Origin: Pirellulaceae bacterium
GTDB taxonomy: Bacteria; Planctomycetota; Planctomycetia; Pirellulales; Pirellulaceae
Reading direction: 5' to 3'
DNA length: 64,000 nucleotides
Assembly (NCBI GenBank): GCA_020852965.1
Contig: JADYZV010000059.1
Span: forward strand, 1 to 64,000
Under the pieces are notes generated by a model. That model had not been told where the DNA came from. It saw only the letters and a program-made list of their open reading frames with translations, and made no database searches. Positions 7,652 through 32,541 of the stretch are shown piece after piece. Numbering within the stretch: the first letter of the stretch is position 1; every line of letters starts with the position of its first letter. A program made the translations under genes and the position numbers.

Positions 7652-8115
7652 GATCGGCTTCCTTTCGAATTCGGGCCGCGTTCATTCTTTTTGTCCGCTG
7701 ATGCTTGGGACGACCTTTGGTTGCCTTGGGTGGCTTGCTTCGCTTTCAAATCGTCGAGCAAGCACTGCAGTTGGCCGATTTCAGATGCCGTGAGTGGTTT
7801 GGTTTCGAGAAGTGACGCGACCAGGTCGACCCCGCTTCCACCGAAAACTCGATCGACAATGCCGCCGATCACTTGCCCGCAGGTTTTATTGGGCGCGATT
7901 TTGGCTTGATACACAAAGGCTTTGCCGCAATGGCCTTTTTTGCGAGTGACGAAACCTTTACCAGACAATCGTTCGAGAAGTGTGCAGACTGAGGAGTGGG
8001 AGAGCGGGCGTCGTTGGGCGAGCATCTCCCGCACTTGGCGCGCGGTCATTTCCTCGGCTTCCCACAGGCATTGCAGCACATCCAGTTCCGCTGGGGGCAA
8101 ATCCAGATCGGTCAT
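7648..8115 (-). CDS. BlaI/MecI/CopY family transcriptional repressor
   Basis: A winged-helix DNA-binding repressor of 155 residues. The N-terminal domain reads PPAELDVLQCLWEAEEMTARQVREML, then SHSSVCTLLERLSGKGFVTRKK, which matches the BlaI helix-turn-helix and wing. In this family the C-terminal part mediates dimerisation. I start it at the ATG at 8115 because the longer frame from 8187 would begin inside an operator-like dyad. Two 16-base dyads lie 44-80 bases upstream and suggest autoregulation. The usual BlaR1/M56 sensor-protease partner is absent or decayed downstream. A charged Lys/Ser/Asn tail ends the protein. Confidence 0.88.
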   Translation of the reverse strand: MTDLDLPPAELDVLQCLWEAEEMTARQVREMLAQRRPLSHSSVCTLLERLSGKGFVTRKKGHCGKAFVYQAKIAPNKTCGQVIGGIVDRVFGGSGVDLVASLLETKPLTASEIGQLQCLLDDLKAKQATQGNQRSSQASADKKNERGPNSKGSRS

Positions 8116-8158
8116 TAGTTGGTTTCCATGCGAAAACTCAAAAAACGGCAAACAGAAT

Positions 8159-8195
8159 ATCGACAAATGTAGATAACTAATCGACATGTGTCAAT
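8159..8195. promoter_or_regulatory. Two tandem BlaI-type operator dyads
   Basis: Two 16-base dyads occur: ATCGACA-AA-TGTAGAT (8159-8174) and ATCGACA-TG-TGTCAAT (8180-8195). They share the half site ATCGACA and are 21 bases apart centre to centre, that is, on the same face of the helix. The layout and the TACA/GACA-TGTC half sites resemble BlaI/MecI operators. They lie just upstream of the repressor gene. Confidence 0.65.
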
Positions 8196-8303
8196 ATGCT
8201 AAGCGTGGGGTGGCCCATCGATTGCGAAAAGCTGGTATCTTTTGTACCGGAGGGAGGATTTGGTGAAGTCCAGCCGTGTGCATTATCCACGTATAGTCTA
8301 GGA

Positions 8304-8370
8304 GTAGTGGACGAGGTTGCGAGTCGCTGGCATCCAGCGAAGCAAGGGGACTCGTAACCTCGTCCACTAC
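8304..8370. repeat. Repeat family R1, inverted pair
   Basis: Two copies of GTAGTGGACGAGGTTACGAG plus TC face each other (8304-8325 and 8349-8370, one mismatch). Between them lies a small stem CGCTGG-CAT-CCAGCG. The whole would fold into a long hairpin. It sits in the gap before the AAA+ module. Further copies are at 40753-40775, 45264-45288 and three in tandem at 62131-62221. Confidence 0.8.
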
Positions 8371-8454
8371 GCCCAATCCCACAATGATGAATCGATGAGG
8401 CATTAGCCTTCTGTTCAACACCACCCCAAACCCTTTTCTCGAGCACCTTCGAAG

Positions 8455-11400
8455 ATGCGTCTTACCCTGAGTGCCTATGTGACGGTCGAGCGTGAAGAGG
8501 GGCGCAGTATTTATAACTGTCGTCCGTTGCGCGGTCCGCAGATCGTGACCCGCGATCCGCTGCTGAGCATCGCGCTGAGCAAGCTGGGGAATAAAATGCG
8601 CAAGTCGGTCAATGCCTGGATCGAAGGGGGCGAATCGGCACGGCTGGGGACCTGGTTGTACGACAGCGAGACGCGTGGTGTGCCGGTCAAGCTAACGCTC
8701 GCGCTGCGAGATCGCACGCTACGTTGGAAACTACTGCTGGTGTGCATTCCTGCATTCACGCGCACGATCGCCTTTTCGCCATCGATTCCCGATGTGGCAT
8801 TCGAGCTCGAGTCGTTGGCAGATTTGGAACTGCGCGCGGCCGAGGTGTATAGCGCGTGGGCGCAGGAAAAGATCTCCGATGGAGCTGAATTCATCTTGGA
8901 CGAAATCGGTGGCGGTAGCGAGATGTGGGTCGAGCCGTTGGAGGTCGAGGTCGAAACGAAGATCCGCGACAAGAAAAAATCCAAGAATATCTTTGCAGCC
9001 TTGTTTGGCGGAGAGCCGAGCAGTGGCAATGAAGAATTGCATAAAGTGGGACAATGCCTGGACGATCTGGCATCCGACTATCAACCGGCACTCGGCCGCA
9101 GCGAATTGGTAAGCGAAGTCGATCGGCTGCTACAGCGGGACGACCGACAAGGGGTACTGTTGATCGGCCCACCGGCGGTCGGCAAGACTGCCATCATCAA
9201 TGAATGCGTGCAGCGCCGGACAGCGCGCTTTCATCATCGTCGCGATCAAAAGCCTCAAGTTTGGTGGTTGTCACCTCAGCGATTGATTAGCGGCATGTCG
9301 TACTTGGGGCAGTGGGAGCAGCGTTGGTTGTCGATCTTACGAGAATCGTCCAAACGCGATCACATTCTGTACTTCGATGACTTGGTGGGTCTATTCACCG
9401 CCGGTCGCACGCGCGACAGTAGCTTGAGCGCCGCCGATGTGCTGCGTAGCTTTTTGGCGGAGCATCCGCTGCGTCTGTTGGCAGAAGCCACGGCGGAACA
9501 GTTGGCGGTTCTACGGCGACGCGATCGCAGCTTGGCCGATCGCTTTCACTTGATCTATGTCCCTGCTTTGAGCGCCGAAGACGCGCTCCCCATCACGCTC
9601 GAGGCCACCTACGATATTGAGCTCCGCGCACAACGCTACTTTCACCCCGAAACCGTACCGCTGATCATGCGGCACCAGGAAACGTTCGCGCCCGACCAGG
9701 CCTTTCCTGGCAAAGCGATCGAGATGTGCAAGACGCTTACCAAGCACTCGTCGTTGGTTGTCAATAGCGATAGTGTATTGAATTTGGCAAGCGCCCAAAT
9801 GGGTGCCAGCTCGGGTCTACTGATCAACGATCTGGGCGATCTACGGTGCATTCAGACATCGCTGTCGCGACAGTTGATCGGTCAACCCGCCGCGCTCGAG
9901 GCGCTCAGCCGTACCGTCATTCGCTATTCACAGCGACTACATCCTCCCGACCGACCGTTGGGAGTGCTGCTGATGCTTGGACCGACGGGTGTGGGCAAGA
10001 CCGAAGCGGCTAAAGCCCTCACGCGTTTGTTGTACACCGAAGAATCGCACTTGGTGCGCATCGACATGAACGAGCTGACCACGCCACACGCGGCAGAACA
10101 ACTGGTCGGCACTTTCGACTCACCCGATGGGCGCCTGACATCGGCCATTCGTCGTCAGCCGAACTGTGTCATCCTGTTGGACGAGATCGAAAAAGCCCAT
10201 CCTGATGTGTTCGACTATTTGTTGCAAGTCTTGGGGGAAGGGCGGCTGACCGACGCGCGCGGACGAGTGGCCGATTTCCGTTCTGCAGTGATCATCATGA
10301 CCAGCAACTTGGGCGCCAGTGAACAGGATTCTAACTTGGGGTTTGAGGTCTCCGCCGAACGGCGGCAGCAGATCTACCTCAAAGCGGCGCAACAGTTTTT
10401 CCGCCCTGAGTTTTTTAATCGTATCGACGAAGTGGTCGCCTTCCGCAATCTTGATCCGCACGATATGGAGAAAATTGTTGCCATTCAGTTGGACCAGGTG
10501 CTGTCTCGCGACGGAATCAAACGCCGCGACATTTTCGTGGATGTCGATCGGACTGCCATCAAGCACATCATACGCCGAGGCTACGATTCCAAACTGGGTG
10601 CGCGCGCCGTGCGGCGAATGCTCGAGAGCCAAGTCATGGGACCGCTGGGAGACTGTCTCTCAGGACTGCATATCGATCGTCCAACTCTCGTTCAAATCTC
10701 GCACCCTCCGAGCGCGGCGGAGCTGAGTTGTCGAGTGCGGCCGCTGGAGATCGCTGCGCGGCAGCCGACAACGCGTTTGAGCGTATTGGAGCCGCTGATC
10801 GAGCAGGCTGGCGCACTCTATCAACAGCTCGATCGCCGCTTGATCGAAATGGAAGAGGAGCTGCGTGAAACGGATCATAGGACGACAGGTCAGACGCATG
10901 GTGCGTCGTATTATGCCCTGCGCGAACAACTATATCGCTGTGCGGAATCGCTCAAAGCAGCCAAGGCGCGGGCCGTACATCCGACGGGGCCACGGCTTGA
11001 TATCAATCCCATTGCCCCTTCGGTGGCGCGGCGTGACTTGGACGGCGGTGGAGCGCGACGTACGATTCGCGACTGGCACGCTCAAGATGACTTGCGCGCC
11101 GCCATCAATGATCAACAGATGTTGCTACAACCTGAGATCCGATCCGCCGATCGGCTGGCGCGACAATTGATCGACAATTTAACCGTCGCTTCGACCATGC
11201 TCGACGCTGCGCAGTCGGCTAGAAGCTGGCTGTTCGGATTCGAGCAGTTGACACATGGAACAGGCTTGGTCGAAGGCAGTTCGCTGGGGCTAGGATTTGG
11301 GCGCACTGGGGCAATTAAGTTTCACTCTGGCCCCAACATCCAAATCCATGATACATCGCCTGCCAGCGGTGCCGCTACACGCCTAGTCCGCTGCCTGAGT

Positions 11401-11910
11401 GAGGGGTGGATGTACGAGGTGGCCGAACAGGCGTTCGAAGGTCGTTACTGGTTGGTGTCGGGGGTATCGTTGATCGGTATTCTGCGCCCATTGCTGGGAA
11501 CCTATCGACTCGACATGTCTCAACAACGCAGTGGTGTTGGCGCAAGTCACCTACTAGCCATGCGAGCGATCGCCGTGCCCGATGCGTGTGCGGCCGAGTA
11601 TCTGGTCGCCTCCGCAACGGAAGGAACTTCGGCGACTTTGCCGACCAGTTTGACAACCGAGCTGACGAGCTTAATTGCGCGCGAACCGTTGTTGGCTAGC
11701 GACGGAACGCCCATGACTCCAGAGGGACAACCGTGGCCAACCTCGACGGTACGTGGCGAGTTGGCAGCGACGATGGTCGACTACGTTAGTGGAGCCAGCC
11801 TTCCCTTGTGGCCCACGAGCTGGTTGGAGCCAAGTAAAGTGCTTGCCCAGGCTATGCAGTGGTGGACCGACTGCCTGCCGGTGCCCAGCCAATTACAGGA
11901 GTCGCACTAA
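8455..11910 (+). CDS. ClpA/ClpB-like double AAA+ ATPase with a novel N-terminus and a release-factor-like C-terminal region
   Basis: The 1151-residue protein has about 200 N-terminal residues unlike the Clp N-domain. A first AAA+ module follows, with Walker A GPPAVGKT near 236, a pore-loop-like LISGMSYLGQW and a Walker-B-like ILYFDDL. The second is canonical, with GPTGVGKTEAAK near 508, ILLDEIEKAHPDVF near 571, sensor TSNLG, arginine finger RPEFFNRID and GARAVRRML. About 400 extra residues then contain a coiled coil (QQLDRRLIEMEEEL) and a segment near 1001-1042 whose Gly/Leu/Arg spacing matches the PCRF core of class I release factors; no GGQ is seen. The family role would be an unfoldase or remodelling machine. 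First gene of a three-gene module. Confidence 0.85.
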   Translation: MRLTLSAYVTVEREEGRSIYNCRPLRGPQIVTRDPLLSIALSKLGNKMRKSVNAWIEGGESARLGTWLYDSETRGVPVKLTLALRDRTLRWKLLLVCIPAFTRTIAFSPSIPDVAFELESLADLELRAAEVYSAWAQEKISDGAEFILDEIGGGSEMWVEPLEVEVETKIRDKKKSKNIFAALFGGEPSSGNEELHKVGQCLDDLASDYQPALGRSELVSEVDRLLQRDDRQGVLLIGPPAVGKTAIINECVQRRTARFHHRRDQKPQVWWLSPQRLISGMSYLGQWEQRWLSILRESSKRDHILYFDDLVGLFTAGRTRDSSLSAADVLRSFLAEHPLRLLAEATAEQLAVLRRRDRSLADRFHLIYVPALSAEDALPITLEATYDIELRAQRYFHPETVPLIMRHQETFAPDQAFPGKAIEMCKTLTKHSSLVVNSDSVLNLASAQMGASSGLLINDLGDLRCIQTSLSRQLIGQPAALEALSRTVIRYSQRLHPPDRPLGVLLMLGPTGVGKTEAAKALTRLLYTEESHLVRIDMNELTTPHAAEQLVGTFDSPDGRLTSAIRRQPNCVILLDEIEKAHPDVFDYLLQVLGEGRLTDARGRVADFRSAVIIMTSNLGASEQDSNLGFEVSAERRQQIYLKAAQQFFRPEFFNRIDEVVAFRNLDPHDMEKIVAIQLDQVLSRDGIKRRDIFVDVDRTAIKHIIRRGYDSKLGARAVRRMLESQVMGPLGDCLSGLHIDRPTLVQISHPPSAAELSCRVRPLEIAARQPTTRLSVLEPLIEQAGALYQQLDRRLIEMEEELRETDHRTTGQTHGASYYALREQLYRCAESLKAAKARAVHPTGPRLDINPIAPSVARRDLDGGGARRTIRDWHAQDDLRAAINDQQMLLQPEIRSADRLARQLIDNLTVASTMLDAAQSARSWLFGFEQLTHGTGLVEGSSLGLGFGRTGAIKFHSGPNIQIHDTSPASGAATRLVRCLSEGWMYEVAEQAFEGRYWLVSGVSLIGILRPLLGTYRLDMSQQRSGVGASHLLAMRAIAVPDACAAEYLVASATEGTSATLPTSLTTELTSLIAREPLLASDGTPMTPEGQPWPTSTVRGELAATMVDYVSGASLPLWPTSWLEPSKVLAQAMQWWTDCLPVPSQLQESH

Positions 11911-11912
11911 TC

Positions 11913-14183
11913 ATGTTCGCCAAAATGCCGGTACTCATCGATCAACCCACTGCTGGTGTCGCCATCGCTCAATTGCTGGACGGTTTGTCACACCAAGCGG
12001 CAGGTTTTTCGATCGAACAATCACTGCGACTATTGAGGAAGAGTCTCCATCGCGAAATCAAAAAGCACCGTGTTTCGTCGTTGACAACCTGGAAATCAGC
12101 CACGTTGGCGCAAAAGAAGTTCGACGTTCAGCCAGCCATCATCTTTCGCGAGCGACGCTACCCAGCCGGACCCAAGGTACAGCTTCCCGTCCGCTATGTC
12201 GAGCTGGTCGATCAGCGCGATCAATTGTACTGCATGCTCCCCGATTTCGGCGAAGTCTTGTACATACCTGAACGCAAACTATTGAAGACGATGTTGTCGG
12301 AAACGGTGCGTTCGATAACCGCCACGCTCTCACCACGAGAGCTGCACAAACTATGGCCGCCAGCCGCCAGCGAATTGAAATGGATTCGATTGGACTTGGT
12401 CAAACCTGCCAACCGACAGACTCTACAGCACACGCGCGTGTTGCGAACGGTAGCCGAACCTTTAAGCGATGGTCGCAATCTGACCATCGTGGCCGGTTCA
12501 CGCGAAGAAGTGCTTGGACAAATGCGCACGGCGATTAGCAAAGGTAGTTGCCTGATTGTGGGAGAAACTGGGGTCGGCAAGACGACCCTGGTGAGCTCGG
12601 TAGCGCGTGAGATGTTTCTCGCCCGCCGCGCTCTGCGAAAACAGCAGCGAGACAAAGGAAGCGACACGGAGCCACTGCAACCTTTGTTTTGGTCGAGCAG
12701 TGCGGGCCGCTTGATCGCTGGCATGCGCTACCTTGGACAATGGCAACAGCGGCTCGAAGCGGTAGTAGCGGAGCTGGCCAATATCGACGGAGTGCTGGCC
12801 ATCGAGAACCTACTCGACTTGGTATCGATCGGTGGTCGTGAGCCCCGCGACTCGCTGGCTGCCTTTTTGATTCCCTATTTGCGCAGCGGCAGTTTGCGGC
12901 TGGTGGCAGAAGCCAGCCCGACGGAGCTCGATGCCTGTCGGCGCCTCTTACCTGCTTTGGTCGATACGCTACCCATGGTGCGCGTCGAGCCGATGCGTAT
13001 CGAGCACGAACAAGAGCTATTGCGAGTGACGCTTGCACAGCAACTGCAATCGGCCGAGATCAAATTCTCTGCCAGCATTCCGGCTTGCGTGTCACGGTTG
13101 TGTCGACAATTCCAACGGCACAGCGCGGCGCCGGGCCCAGCTATGCGGTTTATTCTGGAATTGGCTGGGCGCAAACGCCGCCAGGATCAGCCCAAACTAT
13201 GGACTGAGCCTTGGATTCTCGAGCGATTTAGCCAACGCACCGGCCTGCCGTTGATTCTACTCGACGATGCTCGCAGTCTGGACAAAGAAACAGTCGTCAA
13301 CGATTTATCGCGCGATGTGATTGGCCAAGCCAATGCCTGTCAACAAATGGCCAGCGTGGTAACTCGCATTAAATCCGCCGTGCAAGACCCGCGACGACCG
13401 TTCGGCTGTCTGCTGCTGTGTGGCCCGACAGGCGTTGGTAAAACACAGTTGGCGAAATCGCTGGCCAAGTATTTGTTCGGAGCGGCTGGGGAGAAAAGTC
13501 CGATGATCCGACTCGACATGAGCGAGTACTCAGGTGTCACAGCCGGTTTTCGCTTTTTGAACGACTCAGCCGGCAACTCGGCAACTTGGATTCAACAGAT
13601 TCGCTCGCGTCCACTGAGTGTGCTATTGCTGGACGAAGTGGAAAAAGCATCGACCGAGGTCTTCGATATCATGCTGAGTATGCTCGACGAAGGGCGACTG
13701 ACCGATCGTCTAGGACGCGTGACCTCGTTTCGCAACTCGGTCATCATCATGACCAGCAATGTGGGGGGGCGCAGTAGCACTTCGCTCGGCTTTAGTGAGG
13801 ATGCGAATATCGACTACGCAAGCGAGGTACGCAAGGCTTTTCGGCCCGAGTTCTTCAATCGACTCGATAGTGTCATTCCGTTTGCGCCGTTGAGCCACGA
13901 AGTGATCCAACAGATTACTATCAAGGAACTGAATGATCTTCGCAACCGTGAAGGGTTGGAGCGCTACGGTCGCGGTATAGAATGGACGACTGAGGTGGTC
14001 GACCACTTGGCTCGAACTGGCTTTCAAAACCACCTCGGTGCTCGGCCGCTGCAACGCGCCATTGAGACGGACATTGTCGCCCCTTTGGCTAAATGGATCG
14101 TGGAACACAACGCGCTACCAGCCACCACACTGCAGCTCGACTGGGACACACACCATCAACTCCTAATAGTTCATCCACGTTAA
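11913..14183 (+). CDS. Second ClpA/ClpB-like double AAA+ ATPase, degenerate first domain
   Basis: Starts two bases after the previous stop, with AGGAG eleven bases before the ATG. The 756 residues open with about 200 residues of unknown fold. AAA+ domain 1 has Walker A GETGVGKTT (near 216) and a pore-loop-like LIAGMRYLGQWQQRL, but its Walker B reads VLAIENL, without the acidic pair. Domain 2 is intact, with GPTGVGKTQLAKSLA near 503, LLLDEVEKASTEVF, TSNVGG, RPEFFNRLD and GARPLQRAI. It shares the YLGQW signature with its upstream neighbour, so the two are probably paralogues that could form a mixed ring. No Clp N-domain, middle coiled coil or ClpP-docking loop was seen. Confidence 0.85.
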   Translation: MFAKMPVLIDQPTAGVAIAQLLDGLSHQAAGFSIEQSLRLLRKSLHREIKKHRVSSLTTWKSATLAQKKFDVQPAIIFRERRYPAGPKVQLPVRYVELVDQRDQLYCMLPDFGEVLYIPERKLLKTMLSETVRSITATLSPRELHKLWPPAASELKWIRLDLVKPANRQTLQHTRVLRTVAEPLSDGRNLTIVAGSREEVLGQMRTAISKGSCLIVGETGVGKTTLVSSVAREMFLARRALRKQQRDKGSDTEPLQPLFWSSSAGRLIAGMRYLGQWQQRLEAVVAELANIDGVLAIENLLDLVSIGGREPRDSLAAFLIPYLRSGSLRLVAEASPTELDACRRLLPALVDTLPMVRVEPMRIEHEQELLRVTLAQQLQSAEIKFSASIPACVSRLCRQFQRHSAAPGPAMRFILELAGRKRRQDQPKLWTEPWILERFSQRTGLPLILLDDARSLDKETVVNDLSRDVIGQANACQQMASVVTRIKSAVQDPRRPFGCLLLCGPTGVGKTQLAKSLAKYLFGAAGEKSPMIRLDMSEYSGVTAGFRFLNDSAGNSATWIQQIRSRPLSVLLLDEVEKASTEVFDIMLSMLDEGRLTDRLGRVTSFRNSVIIMTSNVGGRSSTSLGFSEDANIDYASEVRKAFRPEFFNRLDSVIPFAPLSHEVIQQITIKELNDLRNREGLERYGRGIEWTTEVVDHLARTGFQNHLGARPLQRAIETDIVAPLAKWIVEHNALPATTLQLDWDTHHQLLIVHPR

Positions 14184-14212
14184 TTGTTCAATTACGACAA
14201 AGGCTCTCCTTC

Positions 14213-17200
14213 GTGAATCGCGAACTTCTGGAACTTGAGCAAGCCTTTCGAGAGAGTTGGCGCAGCTTCAATCCAGGCGGCTATGCGCAGTACTTGGACC
14301 GAATCGACGCGGCTCTTCGGCTCGAACTCCTGGCGCGATTACTGAGCGCAGAGCTCGAATTCGCCTTTCAACCCCCTTCGGTGGTTCGGGAGTGCCTGGC
14401 TGGCCGACTCGACTATTCGCCGTCCATGCCCATTGCCCACAATCACGAACGGAGCGGCAGCAATGTCGCCGGCAGCGCGGACACGCTGGAGGGGCACCGC
14501 GATAGCGACAAGGAGGCCGATTGCGAGATAGACGACGATCAACGCGTCAAGCCTTGCGTGCCACTATTCCTGGTGCAGTTTCCCGAACTAGCTGGCCGCA
14601 ACGAACTGCTCATTCGGTTGATCGTGCTCGAGTATGCTTTACGGTTGCGCTACGATCCATGCCCGCCGAATCCTGAATCGTATTTGCCATTATGCGAGCA
14701 GGGAGGGGACCAATTAATTCGGCTATTGGAGCTGACCGAGAACAAACTACCGCAGAGCCGCTCGGCATCGTCGCCTGCCGAACCGTTGAAGCACTCCGAT
14801 TCGACGATCAAGGAAGCGTCATTGTCCGCTTCGATCACGCTCGATCCGCTGCCGCTGAACCTTGGGTGTTTCCTACTGGTGCGATTGTTGGGGCGTGGCG
14901 GTATGGGGTATGTGCATGCAGCCATCGATCTGCGCAGCACTGCGCAGGTAGCCGTGAAGGTCATGCGCCGCGTGGATGCTTGGAGTATCTACCGATTTAT
15001 CGAGGAATTTCGCTGGCTGTCTCAGTTGAGTCATCCGCATTTGGTCAAGTTATACGACGCATTCTGCGAAGGAGACATCCGCTACTTCTCGATGGAATTG
15101 ATCGAGGGCAAGATGGTCCGCGAATGGTTTCGCAATTTTCCTGTGGGGCTATCGTCACGCTGGGGTGAACTGCGGCGCGTGCTTGAACAGTTCGCCTCGG
15201 CCGTCGAGTACCTGCACGATCATCAGGTGTTGCATTGCGATTTAAAGTGCTCAAACATGATGATCACCTCGGGGAACCGCGCCGTGCTCTTGGACCTTGG
15301 TTTGGCGATACGCGCTGGTCAAGAAAATCGCCTGGTTGGTACTTTGCAATACATGGCACCCGAGTTGATCGAGGGTGGGTCGGCGACCTATGCGAGCGAT
15401 TGGTATAGTTTCGGAGTCATGATTTACGAAGTGCTGACCGACAGCTTTCCTCCCATCGAAATTGATCTATCGAACAGTGGCGTGCGCGGGACCAAATATA
15501 GCTTGGACCTCGAAAAGGTTCGTTACCTGCTGCGGGATTGTCCCACCGACTTGATGGATTTGTGCATTGAGCTGCTGCGTGCTGATCCCTCCAGGCGACC
15601 TCGATGCAGCGATGTCGTACAGCGATTGTCAGGCACCAAGAAGGCGCGCATGCGGCCCGCGAAGCAACCGCTATTGTGCTGGGGGCGTGAAAATGAGCTG
15701 GCGACTTTGAATGCGGCTACACGGACGCCAGGCGACGGGACGTTCAGCGGGCCCACCAACGCGAGCCAGACTTCCATCGCGCCGAATTTAGAGAGGCAGA
15801 CATTAGAAGGGCAGAAAGGCGAAGAGCAATGTGCTAGCTTGGTCATGCTGTATGGGGAATCAGGAATTGGGAAAACGACACTGCTGCAACACTGGTCTCG
15901 TGCGTTGCCGCAACAAGGCAAACAGTTGTTGCTCTCGGTTCGCTGCTATCGACAGGATCACACCCCAGTCCGACTGCTCAACGCCTTGGTTCAAGAGTTG
16001 ACGCTGGCCGCACCGAAACTACCAGCTGACATCTGGGAACCGGCGCTGACGAAGCTCGCTCGCGAGATCTGCATTCTGTTCCCTCAGGTCCAACAACTAC
16101 TGCCTGCAGGCCAAGCGAGCACCGTTCAGCGGGCAGAATCTCATGCTCCGCCGAATGAGACGGCCCACGATGTCAGCCTCGGTTCCATCGTCCAATGGTT
16201 GTTGGAACTCAGCCACCAACAAAGACTAATTCTTTGTGTGGACGACGCGCAATGGGCCGATATCGAAAGCCTGCGAACGCTTCGAAGGCTACTTACCCAT
16301 CCAGCCCGCTTCTGCGGAACCCTGGTGTTGGTCGATGAAAGCAGCACGAGTCGGATACGCGACTTATTCCGGCCCAGCCGTGCGCCGGAGCGAGACGAAT
16401 TTGCGTTGAGCAATTCAGCAGGCAGCTCGTCAGACGGCGATTCTCCATTTCTTACAACGCAAATTTCGCTTCACGCTTTGAACCAGCAAACCTGCCAAAT
16501 GCTGCTCGAACACTGGGCTAGCAACGCACAGGTTTCCATGAAGTCTTCGATCTCCCAGGATATCGCCGAGCGGTCTAGCGGCAATCCTTTCTTGCTCCAG
16601 GAGATCTTCCGCACCTATACACATCATGTGGCCAATGGCGATACCACAGGCACGGCCTGGCTAACGGCGGATTCTCAAAGTAGTGTGCGAAGGCGTTTCA
16701 GCATGCTTTCCATAGCGGCCGAAAACATCCTACAGTTCCTAGCAGTTTCTGACCATTCGATGAGCTTTCACCAACTCCAAATGGTTTCACGAATTCTGCC
16801 ACAAGAATTGCAACGTACGCTGAGCTGGTTGGCCTCGCAGGGCTGGATCAGCTCGCGTGGCAGCGAGACCGAATCGGGCTTCGAAGTCGCACATGAGAAC
16901 TTTCGACGTGCCATACTTCAATCGATACCAGCCGACCGCATTCACCGGCGGCACTATCGTTTGTCGCGAATTCTATCGTGTGAAACTCCTCCCCCCTGGG
17001 CACGCGTAGCTCGCCATTACTGGGCCGCCGAGCACTTCCGCGAAGCCAGTTCGTGTTACTTGGAAGCAGCCCGACAAGCCATGGCGACAGGGAGTATCGA
17101 TGAAGCGCTCGAATTCTTGGACCGCGCAGAGCACCCCGACGCACAGCGTACTCCCACCGAACAACAGCGGGTGACGCGGATGAAGGCAGCTTGTCTAGCA

Positions 17201-18754
17201 CGCGCCGGAAGCTCTCTGGCGGCTGCGCAGTTATACGATCAGCTACTCGATACACACCTGCGCAAACCATCCACCGATGCTCCTGCAGCTACAGGTAGAA
17301 TCCAAACGATCGCTGGATATGCTGACGAATCAACTATCATGTTACGCTGTTTGGCAGGGGAGCAGAGAATTCGAGCAGGCGAATTGGAAGCGGGCTTGAG
17401 TCGACTTCAATTGGCGCTACAAAACCTTGGAATTGTCCGCTGGAGGAAGACTCGCTTCGCTCAACTTAGCCTCGCACTGCGTACTTTTCGGCTGGGCTTA
17501 ACCTCCCCCACTCATCTGGCTGCAAACACTTTGGACAATGCATCCGCCGCGCCATTCAGCGAAATGGAGCGTTGCCTCAATCGCCTGGTACCGCCTTTGA
17601 CTTTTCTGGACAGTCAATTGGGGCCTGATCTCGCTCTGCGATTAGCCCGCCGAGCCGAAAAAACGGGAGAGCCATTTGATCGCTCCCTGGCCCTGCTGCG
17701 ATCGGGCATTTTGCTTTCCTTCGCTGGCCGCAAATGGCGAGGTCGGGCTCTGCACCGCCTGCGGATCGGACGCCAACTGGCTCGGATGAGTCGCTCCGAC
17801 GAGGCGCGCGCCACCGGCGACTTCTGTATGTTCGTGTGGCATCGATTCTGCGGCCAGTTTCACTCGGCCGCTCGATACGGGCATGCTTCCCTCAAGCGCT
17901 ATCACAACTGCCACTCCAGCACTCAATGGGAGCAGCAGTTTCTTCACTGGGCCATGCTTGGCACATATTGGTACACCAACCAACTGCGCGAGCTGACTCG
18001 TTTGACATTTCAGTTGCGGGAAAGCGCCCACCATCGTTCCGATCCGATGTCGCTGTTTTGGATGCACGTCGATACCGCACACTGGGCCGACCTGGTTGCT
18101 GATCAACCCAGTCTCGCACGTTCGTCGTTGGTCATTGCCAGCAAAGCCATCGCCAATCAATCGCTGCAATCACCGCGTTTCTTCCTATGGCTGTCGCGCA
18201 TTTACCAATCGCTTTACGAAGGCAATCCCCAGCAAGCTTTAGAAATCCTGGAAGCGGATTGGCGACAATTGGGCCAAGCCTACCTGATGCGCACCAACTA
18301 CTATCGTTGGCTGGCGTTGACCGCCCGCATTTGTTGCGATCTCGTTAGCCTGCAGCACCAGCCCGCCAACTCGGCTAAGCTACTGAAAGATGCCCAACGC
18401 TGCGCGCGCGACATGCAACGACTGGAGGAACCCGTGTTTGTGTGTTACGGAAAAGCATTTGCACTGGCCATCTATGCCTGGAGTGTCAGCACCGAATGCG
18501 TCTCGACGAGCCGCCGCGGAGGGCGTGGCCGGACAACCTCGCAGCCTGCGGCGTGGGAAACTAGCATCGCACAACTTCACAAGCTGGGACATCCCCTGCT
18601 GGCGTTAGCCCTGCAGTGGCATTACAGTTTCTATGCGCCAACACAATCCGAGGAACTGCGACAACAAGCTGAAACTGCCTTTCGTGAACAGGGTTGCGTC
18701 CGCCCCGACAAGTTGTTGAATACGATCCTCCCCTTGCCAACGCAGTTCGTGTAG
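14213..18754 (+). CDS. PknK-like Ser/Thr kinase fused to an NTPase and helical repeats
   Basis: A multidomain signalling protein of about 1513 residues. The N-terminal 200 residues resemble the helical segment in front of many planctomycete kinases. The kinase domain (about 218-475) has GRGGMGYV, the VAVKVM lysine, HCDLKCSN in place of HRDxxxxN, DLG in place of DFG, and GTLQYMAPE. The catalytic Asp, Asn and metal-binding Asp are kept. A STAND/AAA_16-like NTPase follows (Walker A GESGIGKTT near 547, LCVDDAQWAD), then about 700 residues of TPR-like helices. I chose GTG 14213, preceded by AAAGG, because the ATG at 14093 overlaps the previous gene by 91 bases. Third gene of the AAA+ module. Confidence 0.85.
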   Translation: MNRELLELEQAFRESWRSFNPGGYAQYLDRIDAALRLELLARLLSAELEFAFQPPSVVRECLAGRLDYSPSMPIAHNHERSGSNVAGSADTLEGHRDSDKEADCEIDDDQRVKPCVPLFLVQFPELAGRNELLIRLIVLEYALRLRYDPCPPNPESYLPLCEQGGDQLIRLLELTENKLPQSRSASSPAEPLKHSDSTIKEASLSASITLDPLPLNLGCFLLVRLLGRGGMGYVHAAIDLRSTAQVAVKVMRRVDAWSIYRFIEEFRWLSQLSHPHLVKLYDAFCEGDIRYFSMELIEGKMVREWFRNFPVGLSSRWGELRRVLEQFASAVEYLHDHQVLHCDLKCSNMMITSGNRAVLLDLGLAIRAGQENRLVGTLQYMAPELIEGGSATYASDWYSFGVMIYEVLTDSFPPIEIDLSNSGVRGTKYSLDLEKVRYLLRDCPTDLMDLCIELLRADPSRRPRCSDVVQRLSGTKKARMRPAKQPLLCWGRENELATLNAATRTPGDGTFSGPTNASQTSIAPNLERQTLEGQKGEEQCASLVMLYGESGIGKTTLLQHWSRALPQQGKQLLLSVRCYRQDHTPVRLLNALVQELTLAAPKLPADIWEPALTKLAREICILFPQVQQLLPAGQASTVQRAESHAPPNETAHDVSLGSIVQWLLELSHQQRLILCVDDAQWADIESLRTLRRLLTHPARFCGTLVLVDESSTSRIRDLFRPSRAPERDEFALSNSAGSSSDGDSPFLTTQISLHALNQQTCQMLLEHWASNAQVSMKSSISQDIAERSSGNPFLLQEIFRTYTHHVANGDTTGTAWLTADSQSSVRRRFSMLSIAAENILQFLAVSDHSMSFHQLQMVSRILPQELQRTLSWLASQGWISSRGSETESGFEVAHENFRRAILQSIPADRIHRRHYRLSRILSCETPPPWARVARHYWAAEHFREASSCYLEAARQAMATGSIDEALEFLDRAEHPDAQRTPTEQQRVTRMKAACLARAGSSLAAAQLYDQLLDTHLRKPSTDAPAATGRIQTIAGYADESTIMLRCLAGEQRIRAGELEAGLSRLQLALQNLGIVRWRKTRFAQLSLALRTFRLGLTSPTHLAANTLDNASAAPFSEMERCLNRLVPPLTFLDSQLGPDLALRLARRAEKTGEPFDRSLALLRSGILLSFAGRKWRGRALHRLRIGRQLARMSRSDEARATGDFCMFVWHRFCGQFHSAARYGHASLKRYHNCHSSTQWEQQFLHWAMLGTYWYTNQLRELTRLTFQLRESAHHRSDPMSLFWMHVDTAHWADLVADQPSLARSSLVIASKAIANQSLQSPRFFLWLSRIYQSLYEGNPQQALEILEADWRQLGQAYLMRTNYYRWLALTARICCDLVSLQHQPANSAKLLKDAQRCARDMQRLEEPVFVCYGKAFALAIYAWSVSTECVSTSRRGGRGRTTSQPAAWETSIAQLHKLGHPLLALALQWHYSFYAPTQSEELRQQAETAFREQGCVRPDKLLNTILPLPTQFV

Positions 18755-31092: not shown

Positions 31093-32541
<1,449 letters not shown>

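Follow-up and report, generated by a model that had tools for sequence, protein, structure and literature searches.

A 64,000-nucleotide stretch from a Pirellulaceae bacterium (positions 1 to 64,000 of contig JADYZV010000059.1, assembly GCA_020852965.1; hereafter, the window) carries three long open reading frames (ORFs) in one direction between positions 8455 and 18754. The first two, genes A and B, encode Clp-like proteins, each with two AAA+ modules (D1 and D2), and are the subject of this analysis; the third encodes a protein kinase with a STAND-type NTPase. A first-pass annotation, made from the letters of the sequence, had read all three as one system, a two-component AAA+ ring coupled to the kinase. 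Its co-directional ORFs are indeed there, with 2 bases between A and B and 29 bases between B and the kinase gene if the latter starts at GTG 14213; a start at ATG 14093 would make it overlap with B. The features of the locus are given below.

Positions 8455 to 11910, plus strand: gene A, a Clp-like AAA+ protein of 1151 amino acids with a release-factor-like tail (ORF, Pfam)
Positions 8455 to 9024, plus strand: N-domain of A, residues 1 to 190, the boundary being our choice (hhalign 93.1% with that of B and 96.4% with that of a third family, C, introduced below)
Positions 9301 to 9315, plus strand: D1 pore signature YLGQW of A, residues 283 to 287 (sequence and alignment)
Positions 9376 to 9381, plus strand: D1 Walker B of A, which reads DD, the catalytic Glu being replaced (family alignment)
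Positions 9979 to 10002, plus strand: D2 Walker A of A, GPTGVGKT, residues 509 to 516 (sequence and alignment)
Positions 10105 to 10137, plus strand: D2 pore-loop site of A, shortened by five residues relative to Clp controls and without GYVG (alignment)
Positions 10336 to 10344, plus strand: LGF tripeptide in D2 of A, at the position of what we take to be the ClpC-type ClpP-contact loop (family pattern count)
Positions 10675 to 11907, plus strand: C-terminal tail of A, residues 741 to 1151, class I release-factor-like, without a GGQ domain (profile searches)
Positions 11913 to 14183, plus strand: gene B, a Clp-like AAA+ protein without a tail, start ATG 11913 (ORF, Pfam)
Positions 11913 to 12482, plus strand: N-domain of B, 190 amino acids, two beta-beta-beta-alpha-beta-like units (AlphaFold model)
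Positions 12729 to 12743, plus strand: D1 pore signature YLGQW of B (sequence and alignment)
Positions 12804 to 12809, plus strand: D1 Walker B of B, which reads EN, the catalytic Glu being replaced (family alignment)
Positions 13422 to 13445, plus strand: D2 Walker A of B (alignment)
Positions 14213 to 18754, plus strand: kinase-STAND gene, a neighbor that we judge to lie outside the conserved system (kinase comparisons across loci)

Pfam bears out the two AAA+ modules that had been claimed for each of A and B, the second with AAA_2 and ClpB_D2-small. The Clp N-domain, which had been called missing, is likewise not seen, in that Clp_N is not among the Pfam families listed (the best 25 of 29 for A and the best 25 of 53 for B), and the YLGQW signature shared by the two proteins does lie at the D1 pore-loop position. 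The first-pass annotation did not mention the release-factor-like tail, which is formed by the last 411 residues of A.

Besides B, a search with A in the source genome returned one more relative, on contig 45, and classification by profile score makes A and B members of two of three paralogous families, the third of which is C. The C gene of the source genome lies on a contig other than that of the window.

Locus L028, positions 8106 to 11531, minus strand: gene C, a C-family AAA+ protein (profile-score classification)

A contig scan with a profile of the N-domain and D1 of B found 89 relatives, of which 80 were kept. By our tally of record titles, these are 38 planctomycete, 19 verrucomicrobial, 10 acidobacterial, 5 from Bacteroidota, 2 from Lysobacterales, and 6 others. 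Most come from metagenome-assembled genomes, and one is a complete genome, that of Sulfidibacter corallicola M133 (L167), in which the cassette is present. For 61 loci, the sequence reaches 7 kb or more upstream of B; 41 of them have A upstream on the strand of B, 38 have C there, and 38 have both, and the order C-A-B on one strand is found in 38. When 3.3 kb or more is required, A precedes B on its strand in 47 of 68 loci. The genes are closely packed, with a gap or overlap of less than 300 bases at 42 of 49 A-B junctions and 32 of 38 C-A junctions and a four-base overlap at 7 and 18 of them, respectively. Genomes G036 and G022 show the order C-A-B; A lies downstream of B in one locus (L106), and all three genes lie apart in one genome (G033). 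Based on these counts, A and B are supported as a conserved pair. The first-pass reading is supported in part: A and B recur as a pair, and what recurs beside them is C and not the kinase.

Strong matches to A, B, and C fall in the identical 21 of 392 genomes of the phylum, at cutoffs (at least 395 bits for A, 338 for C, and 292 for B) that were chosen after the lists had been seen. In a further 27 genomes in which the cassette at B was broken or incompletely seen, A is found in 24 (at least 336 bits), C in 24 (at least 293 bits), and both in 23; two of these (G459 and G465) give the same places as two of the 392 (G130 and G181). Each family is monophyletic, with a support of 0.995 for A, 1.0 for B, and 0.986 for C. 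Mirror-tree correlations among them are 0.93 to 0.97 (32 loci), as high as in none of 2,000 permutations of a kind that ignores the shared species tree. The branch order of the families in the midpoint-rooted tree has little support (0.119 for B with C), and six Clp controls are not monophyletic in it. The co-occurrence of A, B, and C across phyla is beyond chance. Clustering the neighbors by similarity (79 loci, 220 proteins) gave no universal fourth gene; the largest clusters span 5 loci, and one of them consists of kinases.

A and C end in a tail that B lacks. The A tail and its C counterpart share a domain (hhalign 90.2%, 82 columns). When the A-tail profile is compared with PDB sequences, all 23 matches up to an E value of 5 are RF1 or RF2, nine of them at 0.001 or less and the best at 1.4e-10, and the GGQ stretch of RF2 stands as an unaligned insert against the A tails. 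An A-tail profile from which the window and its closest relative (L092) were left out still recovers the window tail (2.3e-11), as well as a planctomycete release factor (2.1e-4), with nothing from reversed controls. The C-tail profile gives 35 PDB matches up to an E value of 1, of which the first 21 and 25 overall are RF1 or RF2 (best, 2.6e-5). Against 30 planctomycete release factors, the C tails align at hhalign 94.5% (E value, 8.4e-8), and cutting out the GGQ columns raises this to 97.1% (7.8e-11, 290 columns), versus 0.3% for reversed controls. An AlphaFold model of one C tail has a predicted local distance difference test score (pLDDT) of 92.6, and in a Foldseek search with it, ranks 1 to 40 come from release-factor entries, 29 at an E value of 0.001 or less and the best at 9.6e-8; the titles of a few of these entries name a ribosome complex only. 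Both tails align to release-factor domains 1, 2, and 4 in order. The nearly invariant columns of the C tails (Y182, E249, G251, H253, R295, and D306) fall within stretches that align to release-factor motifs. In total, the profile comparisons for A and the profile and model comparisons for C support well the view that the tails derive from class I release factors (RF1/RF2) minus the GGQ domain. RF1 and RF2 need GGQ for peptide release; with GGQ lost, such an arm cannot release peptide as they do.

The AAA+ modules are altered in a consistent manner. We tabulated motifs in 155 proteins (45 A, 72 B, and 38 C, near-identical rows kept) and the six Clp controls. In D1, the Walker A Lys is present in 155 of 155, whereas the catalytic Walker B Glu is present in none, versus 6 of 6 controls; it is replaced in the A family by D (43) or N (2) and in the B family by N (45), S (19), D (7), or G (1). 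The D1 Arg fingers are mostly gone, with Arg at the first position in 0 A, 1 B, and 4 C and at the second in 3 A, 2 B, and 0 C. At the D1 pore site, most A and B proteins have Y-x-G-x-W and 36 of 38 C proteins have G-x-G-x-W; since the single pattern used in the contig scan held the Trp of YLGQW, selection accounts in part for this Trp in 72 of 72 B proteins, and the A and C rows entered the table as neighbors of B. In D2, the Walker A Lys, Walker B Glu, Arg finger, and sensor 2 Arg are each present in 155 of 155. The column of the D2 pore Tyr, filled by Tyr in all six controls, is a gap in 154 proteins and Leu in the remaining one. Between sensor 1 and the Arg finger, a tripeptide of the form [LIVMF]G[FLYM], resembling that of the ClpC-type loop that contacts ClpP, is seen in 133 of 155 proteins (38 of 45 A, 63 of 72 B, and 32 of 38 C) and 1 of 6 controls, and the source genome has two ClpP places. 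PDB matches of A at E values up to 1e-20 are Clp/Hsp100-type entries. The ClpA model, which we take to be without the coiled-coil M-domain, aligns to A in one stretch, and the ClpB model aligns in two.

The N-termini of A and B, which had been called unmatched, match no Pfam family, but the N-domains of all three families share homology (hhalign 93.1 to 97.5%). The AlphaFold model of the B N-domain (pLDDT 88.7) consists of two strand-rich units with one helix each. In a Foldseek search with this model, a probability of 0.99 is reached only by chains of HicB antitoxins, at ranks 31, 32, and 41 of the best 50 (48 to 60 columns, root mean square deviation [RMSD] of 1.4 to 1.6 Å), but at E values of 0.33 to 0.39, with unrelated entries ranked above them and no match at 0.001 or less. 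Sequence matches of the N-domain in the PDB are weak (2yzt, 0.043; HicB 6u0i, 0.95), and the 21 Pfam families that matched any of 63 N-domains include no HicB family. The model and sequences are thus only suggestive of a resemblance to tandem HicB modules.

The anatomy of the trio is well supported; its function we infer. A hetero-oligomeric ring is a natural reading of A and B, and we tentatively propose, at a confidence a little short of even, that they are two subunits of a three-subunit machine of the Hsp100/Clp type whose release-factor tails would place it on ribosomes. In this model, A, B, and C would assemble as one hetero-oligomeric double ring in which D1 would bind ATP as a scaffold and D2 would be the motor. 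Through the tails of A and C, the double ring would dock at the A site of the ribosome, or at another site that binds release factors, and docking would occur without hydrolysis of peptidyl-tRNA. The motor would then remodel the complex, extracting or releasing the nascent chain or a bound factor, or splitting a stalled or damaged ribosome, and the protein would perhaps be handed on to ClpP; the ClpP-type tripeptide in 133 of the 155 proteins keeps such delivery possible. The most likely job would be to dock on the ribosome for the force of D2 to remodel something there. We speculate further, and with somewhat less confidence, that this is a new ribosome-directed AAA+ machine for stalled or damaged ribosomes, a heteromeric Hsp100 with a catalytically dead release factor as its docking arm and a bacterial counterpart of Pelota with Cdc48.

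Several observations weigh against this proposal. The complex, its binding to ribosomes, and its activity are all predicted. Loss of the D2 pore loop speaks against ordinary threading in D2, and what we take to be the stop-codon reading elements of release factors appear absent from the tails, so a tail may no longer bind ribosomes. The A tails align weakly to the full set of 30 planctomycete release factors (hhalign 17.6%); when these are divided by sequence into 11 RF2-like and 19 RF1-like, the values are 41.9% and 0.7%, with 41.1% when GGQ is removed. Among 40 A tails, each Pfam family that matched at all did so only once; PCRF was found in 4 of 33 C tails (best E value, 0.019), and the unrelated DUF501 matched one C tail at 5e-4. 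The template modeling (TM) scores of the C-tail Foldseek matches are low (0.20 to 0.47, RMSD of 7.9 to 25 Å), which fits a missing domain and changed domain angles in the model and is not strong evidence alone. No translation gene recurs among the clustered neighbors of the 79 loci. Some sets are incomplete: one genome has B and C only (G124), one a partial B only (G268), one lacks A (G464), and one lacks C (G474); another has a divergent pair (G271), and two have divergent relatives only (G466 and G467). Finally, full-length A is present in only 2 of 14 congeners (G003 and G005) of the genus sample, and the machine is therefore dispensable.

Could the release-factor fold have been put to another use? 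A hetero-oligomeric Clp-like machine with no role at the ribosome, in which this fold serves assembly or substrate binding, is a serious possibility, though we would not back it at even stakes; such a machine would be a disaggregase, a ClpP-linked protease, or a remodeler of an unknown complex. The same anatomy and co-occurrence speak for it, as do the great divergence of the tails (mean column identity of 19% for A and 23% for C), the lack of a tail on B, and the excess of the ClpC-like tripeptide over controls together with the two ClpP places. What speaks against it is that the tails of A and C are still recognizable as release factors after such wide divergence and that the near-invariant columns of the C tail map to stretches aligned with release-factor motifs.

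Is the trio perhaps a conflict or defense module directed at translation, one that would, for instance, clear away ribosomes that phage or toxins have damaged? We consider this unlikely. The patchy presence among congeners and the spread of the trio over several phyla would suit such a module, and the relevant parts of a survey of release factors link rescue of the RFH type to conflict (PMC6514570). However, the PADLOC matches are to models of ATPase domains only (DolB and PDC-M37B; best, 8.3e-28) and to kinase models (mad6 and PD-T4-6), no full gene set of a known antiphage system was matched by PADLOC, and no defense gene recurs among the neighbors, which were clustered by similarity and in part scanned with Pfam. 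Nothing was found in support of the immune role, or of the control by phosphorylation, that the first-pass annotation had suggested.

That annotation had coupled the two AAA+ proteins to a PknK-like kinase, an idea to which we now give very little credence. Pfam does find the protein kinase and an AAA_16 NTPase domain in the third window protein; TPR repeats, also claimed for it, are not among the 16 families listed. In favor of a kinase-controlled system are its adjacency in the source genome, the presence of a long kinase homologue in both congeners tested (G003 and G005, the carriers of A and B), and the presence of window-like kinases at 5 of 79 loci among the two nearest neighbors on either side (up to 2.5 kb away), a raw count that we regard as a weak trend. 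However, the relatives at those loci are found only by the kinase domain and not by the N-terminal or STAND part, and the source genome itself has 80 kinase-domain matches. In G005, A and B (62% and 69% identity) lie on a contig other than that of the long kinase homologue, and this homologue precedes a SpoU methylase gene that matches the one behind the window kinase (76.5%); the kinase and SpoU are kept together there with A-B elsewhere, which makes the adjacency particular to the source genome. We therefore rejected the kinase as a component, the recurrent partner being C instead, and judge it most probably a chance neighbor. The catalytic loop of the kinase has HCD for HRD, and it has DLG for DFG. 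Equally improbable is that A and B are ordinary ClpA, ClpB, ClpC, or ClpV paralogues, since for all the closeness of D2 to ClpB and ClpC, the motif table already contradicts this (no D1 Walker B Glu in any of 155 proteins; D2 pore stretch missing in 154 of 155 versus 0 of 6 controls), an extra tail is present, and A and B reach no NCBIfam Clp equivalog cutoff (for A, 329.8 bits against 1232.1 for ClpB, 321.1 against 993.15 for ClpA, and 232.3 against 884.95 for ClpV; B scores lower), in agreement with the earlier view that the pair is not ordinary ClpB/ClpC.

Other genes adjoin the trio in parts of the sample. In three Saprospiraceae loci (L164, L162, and L166), two tandem related genes of about 670 to 680 amino acids lie upstream of B, and in five planctomycete loci (L112, L119, L132, L136, and L149), a gene of about 295 to 363 amino acids lies on the opposite strand just upstream of C. 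Response regulators with a sigma-54 domain adjoin trio genes in three genomes, at L028 6568 to 7950 (by C in the source genome) and, by A in two others (G005 and G130), at L029 12853 to 14271 and L086 2895 to 4427 (Pfam for L028 and L029; similarity for the rest); the window has such a gene elsewhere, at 31093 to 32541.

The trio also sits within a wider group, given that related genes in other genomes, single or paired, share its motor changes (L038, L066 to L070, L087, L169, and L170, with the D1 W, a shortened D2 loop, and degeneration of the D1 Walker B); some of these show an ExGxH motif in the tail. Proteobacterial relatives (L170, L169, and G467) occur in several copies, some as neighboring pairs, with motor changes like those of the trio and tails of the ExGxH type, and are possibly a sister two-gene system; L169 and L170 are counted among the 72 B proteins, and L170 is followed by a kinase gene. 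In other planctomycetes, trio-like Clp genes appear as single matches (L038 8889 to 12362 and L066 to L070, most seen as short loci), a possible homomeric form.

How does the trio compare with known systems? It resembles the class 1 Hsp100/Clp proteins (ClpB, ClpC, ClpA, and Hsp104) in its two AAA+ modules, its D2-small domain, and a D2 with Walker A, Walker B, sensor 1, Arg finger, and sensor 2; it differs in a D1 without the catalytic Glu and mostly without the Arg finger, the deleted GYVG stretch of D2, HicB-like N-domains with no Clp_N seen, three paralogues, and release-factor tails on two of them. Torsins and other Clp-like ATPases without the aromatic pore loop share that lack with the trio, but they have a single AAA module, depend on activators, and bear no release-factor tail. 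In eukaryotes, Pelota/Dom34 and a motor of the Cdc48 type act in ribosome quality control. The likeness here is one of logic only, a nonhydrolyzing release-factor mimic with a double-ring AAA+ motor; the proteins are of different origin, and we claim no sequence relation. The tails are like domains 1, 2, and 4 of RF1/RF2 in alignment (and, for the C tail, in fold by Foldseek) but are fused to a Clp-like motor and lack the GGQ domain, and judging from the alignments, the stretches that we take to read stop codons are not recognizable. PrfH/RFH and ArfB are, like the tails, release-factor derivatives outside ordinary termination (PMC6514570, relevant parts), but they keep the GGQ hydrolase domain, whereas the trio tails lost it and gained an AAA+ motor. 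That paper surveys GGQ-bearing bacterial release factors, and a GGQ-less release factor fused to a Clp-like motor is absent from its relevant parts, as is any such system from the relevant passages of PMC7159879. We found no description of such a system in open-access PMC full texts, a scope that excludes subscription papers and preprints.

If the tails do place the machine on ribosomes, these genes would represent an undescribed motor, present in several phyla, in which a release-factor mimic is coupled to Hsp100 force, and they would add a new way in which ribosomes are rescued and the quality of nascent chains is controlled. Should the tails have another use, three Clp-like paralogues are still inherited together, with divided tails and degenerate D1 rings, and the trio would be unusual among bacteria as a candidate obligate hetero-oligomeric Hsp100.

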